A DNA stretch of 56,718 nt, taken from positions 1-56,718 of IMG/VR virus record IMGVR_UViG_3300050343_000137. The stretch is one strand, 5' to 3'. Position numbers and translations under genes: made by a program. Below the pieces are notes generated by a model, which was given only the letters and a program-made list of their open reading frames with translations, had not been told where the DNA came from and ran no database searches. The DNA is from a virus. This document shows, piece by piece, positions 36,849 through 56,092 of the stretch. How positions within the stretch are numbered: position 1 is the stretch's first letter; every line of letters begins with the position of its first letter.

Positions 36849-37670
36849 ATGGTGGACAAAAATATATTTCATTTAGTGGGTATGCCACGTGCTGGTAACA
36901 CAGTATTAGGTGGTATTATCAATCAAAATCCAGACTTACAAGTTAGTCCTTTAAGTCCTTTAAGTAGAACTGTAAGTACTTTACATCAATCTTTTGAAGG
37001 AGAAGCTTGGGAAAACTTTGACTGGTCTGCTGAACAAGATACCTTAGCAAGAAAAGTTGCACAAGCTTGGTATTCAGAATCTAAAGCAAATAATATTATA
37101 GACAGAGGTAATTGGTTTCCAGAAGTAGTTAAAAGATTATCTGATAATCCAAAAGTAATTATTTTACAAAGAGATGTGTTTGAAGTATTTGCTAGTTTTA
37201 TAAAATGGGCAAATGAAAATATAGAAAACTTTATATATACAAATGTAATGTCAAGAAAACCAGAAGATGTTATGTCTTATTTGTCTGAATACGGTAATGT
37301 ACAAACATCAGCAAGAATGATTTATACATATCAAAAATATTTAGAAGAAAATGATGATATTGATGTTATGTATTTAGACTATGAAGATTTAACTGGTGAT
37401 ACAGAAAATTCTATAAACAAACTGTACGAATTTTTAGAAGTGGAAACGTTTGAACACAATTATCAAAATATAGGTCAATTTACATTTGAAGGTGAAAAAT
37501 ATAACGATTCAAGAGTAGGTGCAAATTTACACAAACTTAAAGAAGGTAAAATACAAACTTCTTCACACGATATTGAATGGTTATTTCCAAGAGAACTATA
37601 TGCTAGATGGGTAAATATGAATGAACTTATATATACCCCAGAACAATTAGAGGAGAAATATAACAAATGA
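36849..37670 (+). CDS. Sulfotransferase
   Basis: 273 residues. LVGMPRAGNTVLGGIINQNP is the 5'-phosphosulfate-binding loop (family PxSGTTxL). VIILQRDVFEVFASFIKWA is the 3'-phosphate-binding strand-helix (family RDPxDVxxS). A C-terminal YLDYEDLTGDTENSINKLYEFL helix is typical of sulfotransferases. Transfers sulfate from PAPS to an acceptor alcohol or amine, here unknown (host glycan, lipid, or the phage's own tail protein). Strong ribosome site GGGAGG. Overlaps the APS-kinase-like gene by 4 bases, so the cassette is one operon. Confidence 0.75.
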   Translation: MVDKNIFHLVGMPRAGNTVLGGIINQNPDLQVSPLSPLSRTVSTLHQSFEGEAWENFDWSAEQDTLARKVAQAWYSESKANNIIDRGNWFPEVVKRLSDNPKVIILQRDVFEVFASFIKWANENIENFIYTNVMSRKPEDVMSYLSEYGNVQTSARMIYTYQKYLEENDDIDVMYLDYEDLTGDTENSINKLYEFLEVETFEHNYQNIGQFTFEGEKYNDSRVGANLHKLKEGKIQTSSHDIEWLFPRELYARWVNMNELIYTPEQLEEKYNK

Positions 37671-46214: not shown

Positions 46215-46382
46215 ATGAACAAAAAATGTATTTTATGTGGCAAAAGACCACAATTAAATGAAAGATATAATTACTGTAACTCTTGTTTACATATTGAGTG
46301 CCGTATATGTGGAAAATGTTCTTTAGGAATGTTGGAGATATTAGATGGTAGAATATGTAATATATGTATTACTACAAAATAG
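46215..46382 (+). CDS. 55-residue tandem zinc ribbon protein
   Basis: CILCGKRPQ, YCNSCLHIEC, CRICGKCSLG and CNICITTK: ten cysteines in CxxC-type pairs, able to bind two to three zinc ions. Overlaps the nuclease start by 19 bases, so probably expressed with it. Unknown role. Confidence 0.6.
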   Translation: MNKKCILCGKRPQLNERYNYCNSCLHIECRICGKCSLGMLEILDGRICNICITTK

Positions 46383-46705
46383 AAATTTTAAGAGTAGTAG
46401 ATGGGGACACAGTAGATGTTAGAATTGATTTGGGTTTTAATGTGTGGCACAAATGTCGTGTTCGACTCATGGGCATTAATGCTCCAGAATCACGAACAAG
46501 AGATTTGGAAGAGAAAGCAAGAGGGCTGGCTGCAAAAGATTGGCTTATAAAAGAGTTAGAAAGTTCAGAAGTCCAAATGCAATCACACGGAACTGGAAAA
46601 TACGGTAGAGTTCTAGGAACTCTAATAATAGATGATGTAGATATCAACCAAAAGATGGTAGATAAAGGACACGCTATTTGGTATGACGGCGGTTCACGCT
46701 CATAA
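46364..46705 (+). CDS. Staphylococcal-type nuclease (SNase family)
   Basis: 113 residues. RVVDGDTVDVRIDLGF (metal-binding Asp), CRVRLMGINAPESR (Arg, then metal-coordinating/general-base Glu), and HGTGKYGRVLGTLII (second Arg) are the SNase signature; QKMVDKGHAIWYDG is the closing segment. No signal peptide, so intracellular. A Ca2+-dependent sugar-nonspecific nuclease that could degrade host nucleic acid or tidy packaging intermediates. Confidence 0.85.
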   Translation: MYYYKIEILRVVDGDTVDVRIDLGFNVWHKCRVRLMGINAPESRTRDLEEKARGLAAKDWLIKELESSEVQMQSHGTGKYGRVLGTLIIDDVDINQKMVDKGHAIWYDGGSRS

Positions 46706-46709
46706 AACT

Positions 46710-46950
46710 GGGGTGGTCTCACATTGAGAAGCTGCTTCAGTCTTTCGACACTCTAATCTTTTCGATTAGAAAGCTGATTATTTTTGCCCACTCATACCGT
46801 TATGAACGGGAATACCTACCGAATTTAATTAGCAGGTTTACTATCATCCCTTGCTCCCTAGCGATAGTCATGCTAGTTCACTTACTTTTTTAAAGCACAG
46901 TAGAGCTACTGAAAATAATCTTGGCTATCTCCGAAAGGAGGGACCACCCC
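46710..46950 (+). ncRNA. Candidate large structured RNA (241 nt)
   Basis: Not coding. P1: GGGGTGGTC (46710-46718) pairs with GACCACCCC (46942-46950). P2: GATTATTTT (46776-46784) pairs with AAAATAATC (46912-46920), extended across a two-base bulge by AGCT (46772-46775) with GGCT (46923-46926). Nested hairpins: CTAATC/GATTAG (46753-46769), CCGTT/AACGG (46797-46809), ACTATC/GATAGT (46840-46868), CTAGC/GCTAG (46858-46876), CAGTAG/CTACTG (46898-46911) and CTCC-GAAA-GGAG (46929-46940). Plus strand is favoured: U-G pairs at the ends of P1 and P2 and a GNRA loop. ACTATC/GATAGT and CTAGC/GCTAG interleave. No family recognised; the adjoining genes are convergent. Confidence 0.6.
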
Positions 46951-46956
46951 TAATAA

Positions 46957-47358
46957 TTAAAAGAGGTTATCTTCTTTCTCTTGAAGCATAATTTGTGCCA
47001 TAGTTATCCTTCTACTACCAAGTTTAGCAATTTCTTTTACCATCTCTATAAAAGCATTAAGCTGACCTGTTCTAAATTTATATAAAGGGTGCTTAGTTTT
47101 ACCTATATCTATACCACTTTCAAACTTCTTACAATACATTTCTATTTCTTTTGCTCTTGCATAGTATGCAACTGCTATTTCGTATAGAGAAGACACACCA
47201 GCTTCTACTGGTGATTTTGTTCTACCAAATAAAGTGTCTGTATATCCTTCTATTTCGTTTTCAAAGTTACGAATAGTTTCCATTGCATTGCCATGATGCT
47301 CAATGTCTTCAAACTTAACATGTAGCAAAGAGTTTTTTTTAGCTAAATTTTCACCCAT
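46957..47358 (-). CDS. Unknown helical protein (weak resemblance to small terminase, P27-like)
   Basis: 133 residues, helical: SLYEIAVAYYARAKEIEMYC, HPLYKFRTGQLNAFIEMVKE, IAKLGSRRITMAQIML. The order 'helix - HP - helix - LGxxR' is reminiscent of P27-type small terminase subunits, but there are no diagnostic residues. ATG 47358 lies in the end of the preceding zinc-finger gene (overlap 8 bases). The last gene of a five-gene minus-strand operon. Confidence 0.5.
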   Translation of the reverse strand: MGENLAKKNSLLHVKFEDIEHHGNAMETIRNFENEIEGYTDTLFGRTKSPVEAGVSSLYEIAVAYYARAKEIEMYCKKFESGIDIGKTKHPLYKFRTGQLNAFIEMVKEIAKLGSRRITMAQIMLQEKEDNLF

Positions 47359-50182: not shown

Positions 50183-51076
50183 TTAATTAATACTTTGCTT
50201 CGGTGGTCTAACAGATTGCTGAGCAAAGTATTCTTTTCTTCTAACTACTGGGAAGCCATCCCATTCACCTTTTTCCCAAACTCTTAAGTATGTAGATGTT
50301 GGGTAATCTATTCCAGCTTTTTTAACTATGGTGTGCATAATATCAAAAGACATTTTACCCAATGCTTGTATGTCTTGATGCGTATGAACCCTTGTCCCCA
50401 TACAAGTTTGTGCAAATCTTCTATGTCCAAGAGAAGCACCATTGTGTATGTCAATCAAATGTGATACTTCAACACCATAACCAGTAGGATATTCTAAAGC
50501 TTCTAATACCTCTCTTCTCCCTGCATACTCACCAGATAAAGGCTGATAAAACTCTTGTATCTTAGGATAGAACATTGCCAACATAGGACGAGCAACAAGT
50601 TCTGTAACTCTACCCATATTACCTCGGTCATAATATGCTTTTACATAATCAACTTCTGGGTTCATAATTAGTGGTCCAACAAGTCCACGAACAAATCTGT
50701 CATCAAAATTTTTAATGTCTCCATCAAGGTAAACTACAATATCTGAGTTAGTTACAAATAATCCTTTCCAAAGATTTTCTCCTTTACCTCCTATAACCTT
50801 TCCTAAGTCTGGTCTAATGTCTTCGGCTAAATAAAAATCTACACCCATAGACGAAACAATTTCTTGTGTGTCATCTGTTGAGCCACTGTCTACTACTACA
50901 AGCTCATCAACCCATTCGGGTATAGCTTTTAAGATTTTAGAAATGTTTTCACCCTCGTTTAAAGTTGGTATAATGACAGCTATAGAGTTATTTTTTTTGT
51001 GACTTAGAATGTATCTTTCGCTAAAGAAACTTTCGTCATATGTGAATGGTTGATACCAAGTGTCAATTCTTTCCAT
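50183..51076 (-). CDS. GT2/GT81-type glycosyltransferase, glucosyl-3-phosphoglycerate synthase-like
   Basis: About 297 residues from ATG 51076 (a TTG at 51091 is less likely). IAVIIPTLNEGENISKIL and ELVVVDSGSTDD are the GT-A nucleotide fold; IVVYLDGDIKNF carries the DxD metal site. The segment YQPLSGEYAGRREVL, then TGYGVEVSHLID and GTRVHTHQ is characteristic of GpgS, which makes glucosyl-3-phosphoglycerate for osmolytes or methylglucose polysaccharides. A stand-alone phage copy may redirect host sugar-phosphate metabolism or use another acceptor. Confidence 0.72.
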   Translation of the reverse strand: MERIDTWYQPFTYDESFFSERYILSHKKNNSIAVIIPTLNEGENISKILKAIPEWVDELVVVDSGSTDDTQEIVSSMGVDFYLAEDIRPDLGKVIGGKGENLWKGLFVTNSDIVVYLDGDIKNFDDRFVRGLVGPLIMNPEVDYVKAYYDRGNMGRVTELVARPMLAMFYPKIQEFYQPLSGEYAGRREVLEALEYPTGYGVEVSHLIDIHNGASLGHRRFAQTCMGTRVHTHQDIQALGKMSFDIMHTIVKKAGIDYPTSTYLRVWEKGEWDGFPVVRRKEYFAQQSVRPPKQSIN

Positions 51077-51106
51077 AAGAAATAATAACACAATTAAATA
51101 GTTCTA

Positions 51107-55158: not shown

Positions 55159-56092
55159 TTATATTTCAAACCCAGTTTCAATGTCGTCTAAGATTCTATT
55201 TGCAGTCTTTTGAATTCTGCTTAGAGATTCTTTAACTAATTTCTTAGTGTCTTCTTTGCCCCAGCTTGCGATATAACCGAAGCTGTAAAGCGTCTTCGTC
55301 GCTATGGATGCCTAGCGCTTCAGCCACTATGAAGGCGACGCCTTCGGCTTCTGTCTCATACCTAGCACGGTTTTGGCGATAGTCTTTAATATCTGCGTGC
55401 ATAATCATATGAGCCACTTCGTGAATTAAAGTTTTAACTTTATATCCGAAGTCTGCGTTTTCATCTATAACAATCTGCTTCTCTTCGTGTGAGCAATAAC
55501 CGTCTGCGCCTCGTGCGTTACCCATCACAACTTTGAAGCCATGAACGTCTGCTAATCTAATGAAGTCTGCAAATACATTAAAGTCTGCGTTCGCCACTAC
55601 ATCTTTGACCATTGAAAATGTTGTTGTTAATTCATCACCTTCTGTTTGATTAATTCCAAACACTGGCACCGACATGAACCCCATCATTTTTTTAGCTATT
55701 CTATGTGAAGAGTTAACCCCACAAAAATTTGTTCTAGTGAATTTATTCCATATAGTCTTACGACCAAAAGAAGTACATCCTTTTTGTATGCATACAAAGC
55801 CCATTCTAGGAGCTAATATCCACATAGCCTTTTCACCAGCTTTAATTGTTCTGCCGACTTTTTCCCACTGCTTAGCACCACGTACAGAAGATGGAAGATT
55901 GTCCCAGCCTCTTAATATAGATTCAAGCCAAATCAACTGGGTATTATTCCAGCTGTATGCCTTTTCACCTTTAACAAAGTGTAAGTAGCTTTTCCAGTCG
56001 TTAGATTCAATCAATGCATCAATAGAGTTTTCTAGAGATGCCGATATATTCTCAACAATTTCTTGATTGCTAAGTTTATTTTTAGTAGTCAT
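55159..56092 (-). CDS. ArdC-like antirestriction protein with zincin domain (one frameshift)
   Basis: The open frame ends at 55244 with unlike residues. Restoring one base near 55275 continues as FGYIASWGKEDTKKLVKESL and RIQKTANRIL, a normal ArdC ending, stop 55159-55161. N-terminal domain SWNNTQLIWLESILRGW, AKQWEKVGRTIKAGEKAMWI (ArdC, ssDNA binding), C-terminal domain with HEVAHM at 224-229 and YETEAEGVAFIVA (zincin metallopeptidase). ArdC proteins protect incoming DNA from restriction. Early promoter supports early expression. Confidence 0.7.

Follow-up and report, generated by a model that had tools for sequence, protein, structure and literature searches.

In tmRNA, RNase P RNA and 6S RNA, a terminal helix joins the 5' and 3' ends. 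Phage genomes are tightly packed and, to our knowledge, few phage RNAs are known that compare in complexity with the one described here. The ornate RNAs GOLLD and ROOL are encoded by phages or prophages and have an elaborate, covarying fold to which no function is assigned, and the profiles of both are Rfam families (PMC12286853). Metagenome surveys have also yielded candidate structured RNAs without an assigned function, from the kind of evidence that we use, namely a conserved and covarying fold (PMC2864571, PMC8040213); those of their motifs that are Rfam 15 families do not match our RNA.

Our RNA lies between two convergent genes in an IMG/VR virus record of 56,718 bases, which was analysed whole and is called the window below. 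It resembles GOLLD and ROOL in being a phage-encoded, elaborate and covarying fold without an assigned function (PMC12286853), but is ~240 nt long (vs. several hundred nt or more), has another fold, and has no tRNA genes nearby. The GOLLD and ROOL covariance models had no match in the window or in five homologous loci. Our RNA is closed by a terminal helix (P1), as are tmRNA, RNase P RNA and 6S RNA, but it was matched neither by their covariance models nor by ARAGORN, which predicted 0 tRNA or tmRNA genes in the window.

Specifically, a search of Rfam 15 (4227 families) at the gathering threshold returned 0 matches for the window or the five homologous loci, and permissive searches (window at E up to 10) returned chance-level matches only. 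This agrees with an earlier note, made from the sequence alone, which had recognised no known RNA class in the interval. The lack of a match applies to Rfam 15, and the RNA may already be described in a published motif collection outside Rfam. A weak match to RAGATH-12 (RF03149) at the P9b/P2/P1 3' end was limited to contigs L187 and L188 (the window and L128 had none); it scored 18.5 bits against a gathering score of 75 bits, broke several of the model's pairs, and was read as chance.

Structure of the RNA and its genomic setting

The interval 46710-46950 encodes a genuine structured RNA, and its folding is not due to chance. Compared with 200 dinucleotide shuffles, the window's version beat all 200 on both strands (z of -4.86 on plus and -3.27 on minus; both-strand z-scores were computed for the window, L187 and L128). 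The GC content of the interval is 0.42, vs. 0.36 for the window. Its position between convergent genes, as stated in the earlier note, was borne out, with an SNase-fold nuclease gene on the plus strand and the gene of a 133-aa phage protein on the minus strand (Table 1). In most lineages, the RNA is within 4-24 nt of both convergent stop codons, and on the minus strand 5-24 nt separate it from the end of the 133-aa reading frame. AlphaFold predicted an all-helical structure for the 133-aa protein (pLDDT 83), and this model had no significant or informative fold match in the PDB. Elsewhere, the window encodes a sulfotransferase-domain protein among the phage late genes (36849-37670, plus; PF00685, E 3.3e-12), a GT2 glycosyltransferase weakly similar to mannosyl-3-phosphoglycerate synthase, i.e., a phage-borne sugar-transfer gene (50183-51091, minus), and a candidate anti-restriction protein that combines an ArdC domain at its N-terminus with an IrrE-like metallopeptidase domain (55244-56092, minus).

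Table 1 Coordinates of the RNA, its elements and the adjoining genes in the window
Feature	Position	Strand	Remarks
SNase-fold nuclease gene	46364-46705	plus	convergent neighbour; Pfam PF00565, E 1.8e-14
Whole structured RNA	46710-46950	minus, most likely	241 nt including both P1 strands; 12 distinct sequences, covariation
P1 5' strand, GGGGUGGUC	46942-46950	minus	closing helix
Invariant UCCUUUC	46933-46939	minus	between P1 and P2; identical in 12/12 distinct members
P2 5' strand, GAGAuAGC	46924-46931	minus	partner 46726-46732; double changes in 6/6 modelled pairs
P3 5' strand, GAUUAUUUU	46912-46920	minus	P2 of the earlier note
P4 hairpin, CAGUA-GCUC-UACUG	46898-46911	minus	
P5 hairpin, CUU/AAG in the window	46885-46895	minus	100% of cells paired; double change in 3/4 pairs
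P6 hairpin, CUAGC/GCUAG	46858-46876	minus	variable length, up to ~56 nt in L187
Invariant GCAAGGG	46848-46854	minus	
P7 hairpin, ACCUGC/GUAGGU	46814-46837	minus	double changes in 5/6 pairs
P3 3' strand, AAAAUAAUC	46776-46784	minus	sequence and homologue compensation
P9 three-way junction	46734-46774	minus	stem GCUU/AAGC; P9a GAAAA loop; P9b GAAA (GNRA) loop
P2 3' strand, GCUUCUC	46726-46732	minus	homologue covariation
P1 3' strand, GACCACCCC	46710-46718	minus	AGUUUU next on minus
133-aa phage protein gene	46957-47358	minus	function unassigned; predicted all-helical; adjoins RNA upstream, same strand

Read 5' to 3' on the minus strand, the order of elements is P1, UCCUUUC, P2, the P3 domain, the P9 junction, and the 3' strands of P2 and P1; the P3 domain holds P4 (or P5b), P5, P6, GCAAGGG, P7b and P7. 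Both long helices of the earlier note are present at the stated positions, and both show compensatory change in homologues. The closing helix forms 9 perfect base pairs exactly where it had been placed, and pairs as GGGGUGGUC/GACCACCCC in the window and as GGGUGGG/CCCACCC, CGAGGUGUC/GACACCUCG or AGGGUAAGGG/CCCUUACCCU elsewhere. The inner 9-bp helix (P3 in our numbering) has the compensated variants AUUUUCCU/AGGAAAAU, ACCCUU/AAGGGU, GCUUCU/AGAAGC and AAGCUA/UAGCUU. Neither uncompensated changes in these two helices nor a conserved ORF across the interval, either of which the earlier note had named as evidence against its proposal, were found; an antisense 116-aa ORF that starts in the RNA is open in the window only. 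Conservation extends beyond the two helices to a further closing helix (P2), a three-way junction and several hairpins. A small hairpin beside P1 (P1.1) was dropped in favour of P2, which covaries across lineages.

Other structural details of the note fared less well. Its 4-bp extension of the inner helix (46772-46775/46923-46926) is not conserved, and homologues have the three-way-junction stem (46771-46774/46734-46737) instead. Of the two overlapping pairings that it took as a possible pseudoknot or switch, CTAGC/GCTAG corresponds to P6, but ACTATC/GATAGT occurs in the window's version only, which leaves the switch unsupported. The plus-strand GAAA tetraloop (CTCC-GAAA-GGAG) is no conserved hairpin, and its letters complement the invariant minus-strand UCCUUUC.

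Among the smaller elements, P5 reads GCAG/CUGC, GCUG/CAGC or GUAG/CUAC in other lineages, and the P9a loop follows the pattern GANAA across lineages. Some pairings compete: P4 with P5b, an RNAalifold alternative in which the ACU of P4 pairs with a 3' AGU around P5, and P7b with P8 (UUCCC/GGGAA). In P7b, the GGG of GCAAGGG may pair with UUCCC, as suggested by an alignment pair (141-179) with 4 double changes. A CCUUU/AAGGG pseudoknot linking UCCUUUC and GCAAGGG is possible; neither side varies. A short U-run stands just after P1 in most lineages and is missing in L128.

Conservation of the fold in related viral contigs

Viral contigs were searched for homologues with the 133-aa protein and then with the nuclease protein. 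The RNA was detected at the same convergent junction in at least 14 further IMG/VR contigs, giving 12 distinct sequences overall in ~8 lineages: W (window), B (L002/L177), C (L003/L117), D (L004/L111), E (L006/L018), F (L008-L010, L141, L137, L138), G (L030/L128) and H (L187-L189). Two covariance models scored 157.4 bits (R1) and 160.0 bits (R2) on the minus strand of the window, which is itself a model member. Each of the ten records searched whole carried one RNA copy. In lineage H, the RNA follows the nuclease gene and is flanked on its other side by up to 276 nt of available sequence without a notable open frame, and in lineage E an extra gene stands between the nuclease gene and the RNA. 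A single-cluster ferredoxin (Fer4_15) is encoded in L018 (3584-3838, plus; E 1.1e-18), and L174 and L178 have reading frames similar to it after the nuclease gene.

The entire viral collection was also scanned twice for motifs of the RNA, and no homologues were added. An initial motif scan had hit unrelated look-alikes (L101-L103, L105-L107) and one Anaerobacillus locus, which were rejected on inspection. The 133-aa gene is also carried by phages in which no copy of the RNA was detected. Specifically, R1 and R2 had no match in more distant phages that encode the 133-aa protein, Gordonia and Brevibacterium phages among them, and the 247-nt gap in phage GMA6 had no similarity to the RNA. Within the searchable data, the RNA is confined to one marine phage clade that resembles actinobacteriophages. 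An actinobacterial host is suggested because the 133-aa and exonuclease-like proteins are related to those of actinobacteriophages.

The fold is conserved while the sequence diverges. Relative to the window, the RNA was 48-60% identical, whereas the 133-aa gene reached 69-77% and the nuclease gene 69-90%. When the window was compared with L111/L117 and L003/L004, the nuclease genes were 90% identical while the adjacent RNA was only 48-51% and the 133-aa gene 73-74% identical, which suggests recombination at this junction.

When the refined structure was applied to the model-fitted alignment, double changes were present in 39 of 61 pairs (24.7 +/- 2.5 when shuffled), the covariation score was 0.417 (0.191 when shuffled), and sliding the partners by one column reduced the paired cells from 80.6% to ~42%. 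A sequence-only MAFFT alignment (A4), with the structure voted from hand-placed helices, showed both-side changes in 27 of 47 pairs, vs. 16.8 when shuffled. In an alignment-free swap test, base pairs were counted after joining a lineage's own 5' segment with the 3' segment of another lineage. Own segments formed more pairs than swapped ones in P1 (10.25 vs. 5.72), P2 (7.1 vs. 5.2), P6 (5.5 vs. 3.0) and P9a (7.5 vs. 3.5), and the separation was less clear for P3, P5, P7, P7b, P9 and P9b. These covariation and swap numbers need to be interpreted as supportive and not as a blind test, considering that the helices were placed by hand with the sequences known, that the lineages are few, and that the pair counts are partly post hoc.

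The functional strand

Comparison of the lineages indicates that the functional strand is very likely the minus strand. The P9b loop reads GAAA, GUAA, GCAA or GAGA on this strand, all of which are GNRA loops, and UUUC, UUAC, UUGC or UCUC on the plus strand. Cells that pair by wobble on minus only (G-U there) outnumbered those that do so on plus only (A-C on minus) by 33:17 in A4 and 66:28 in A6, the latter alignment being biased towards minus; the homologues thus contradict the earlier note, in which wobble pairs had been taken to favour the plus strand. RNAalifold gave -22.55 on minus and -15.21 on plus for one alignment and its reverse complement, and most helices of the swap test read longer on minus.

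Two observations run counter to this assignment. P3 has 8.25 bp on plus and 6.75 bp on minus, a difference caused by a C.A combination that hardly varies at the inner end of this helix, and the z-score of the window's own fold is better on plus (-4.86 vs. -3.27). Such values would fit the same RNA being made and acting on the plus strand, where P3 gains 1-2 bp; it would then form the tail of the late operon whose last gene is the SNase gene. Nonetheless, the GNRA loops exist on minus only, and the wobble balance, the RNAalifold energy and most helix lengths also favour minus, which makes a plus-strand RNA quite improbable in our judgement. The earlier note's proposal of a new phage-borne structured RNA is well supported by covariation in ~8 lineages and by the lack of an Rfam match for the window and the tested homologues, but its choice of the plus strand is disfavoured.

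Possible role of the RNA

We lean towards a trans-acting structured noncoding RNA, transcribed leftward, as the probable reading of this locus. From its surroundings and fold, we infer the transcription unit, the trans action and the partner as follows. A phage noncoding RNA of ~230-270 nt would be made from the minus strand at the very end of a leftward operon, starting in most lineages 5-24 nt after the 133-aa reading frame stops. It would close on itself through P1 and P2, ending in most lineages at the U-run after P1. This closure would enclose P3, whose domain branches into P4-P7, and the three-way junction of P9, in which one hairpin has a GNRA cap. The invariant, mostly single-stranded core (UCCUUUC, GCAAGGG and bases of the P9 junction) would be expected to be read by a partner, so the folded RNA would act in trans, probably within an RNP or on host machinery.

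Downstream of the RNA on the minus strand, no gene or conserved ORF was found, the sequence being the antisense of the SNase gene (of another gene in lineage E). A 5' leader of the riboswitch or attenuator type requires a same-strand gene downstream, and was rejected because nothing conserved is encoded there. Several points count against the trans reading: a scan for promoter consensus sequences found no convincing promoter, the U-run, which L128 lacks, may be no more than the A-run after the SNase stop codon, and the position at the tail of an operon also suits a cis-acting 3' element. The RNA might then belong to the 3' UTR of the leftward mRNA (or of both convergent mRNAs), where it would stop read-through and block 3' exonucleases without any function in trans. 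Its place between convergent stop codons, both of which lie 4-24 nt away in most lineages, and the U-rich sequence after P1 on minus are consistent with this. However, termination or end protection needs 1-2 hairpins, and here ~10 helices and two invariant 7-mers persist through ~50% divergence. Moreover, the RNA is missing at that position in close relatives whose SNase gene is similar, and no gene precedes the RNA in the available sequence of L187-L189. We thus regard a purely cis-acting element as unlikely, and trans action as likelier, because the RNA is far more complex than a hairpin for termination or end protection would be, and because it retains its fold although its sequence drifts faster than those of its neighbours.

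One form of trans action would be a base-pairing regulator, in which an exposed UCCUUUC, with its resemblance to the anti-Shine-Dalgarno sequence of 16S rRNA, would mask the ribosome-binding sites on phage or host mRNAs. UCCUUUC is invariant and modelled as unpaired; but its complement GAAAGGA precedes 0 of the 52 window ORFs (AAAGGA precedes 1), which weakens this idea, and the CUCC core of the anti-Shine-Dalgarno sequence is lost in lineages C, D and H, so that we consider such a regulator highly doubtful. A compact, multi-branched fold with few invariant nucleotides outside the supported helices could also belong to a new self-cleaving or otherwise catalytic RNA. This is very improbable given that no Rfam ribozyme matched at any sensitivity tried and that no cleavage-site signature was seen.

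A ~240-nt noncoding fold has been kept by this clade through ~50% sequence change, next to genes that are 69-90% identical, and its retention at such cost means that it probably has a specific task during infection. The boldest reading, which we hold to be distinctly unlikely, is a new class of phage RNA machine, fast-evolving in sequence but constant in its fold and core, which would catalyse a reaction or capture a part of the host ribosome or RNA polymerase in infected marine bacteria. Structure probing, the mapping of expression and pull-downs of partners can build directly on the secondary structure and the covariance models.

For the favoured trans-acting RNA, transcription in the L187-L189 lineage may be served by a promoter of its own, as up to 276 nt upstream are without a gene. 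We note that only 80-276 nt follow the RNA before these three contigs end, that this sequence has no long open frames, and that an assembly break or a hypervariable point beyond the RNA is possible. Many related contigs likewise stop just after the nuclease gene.
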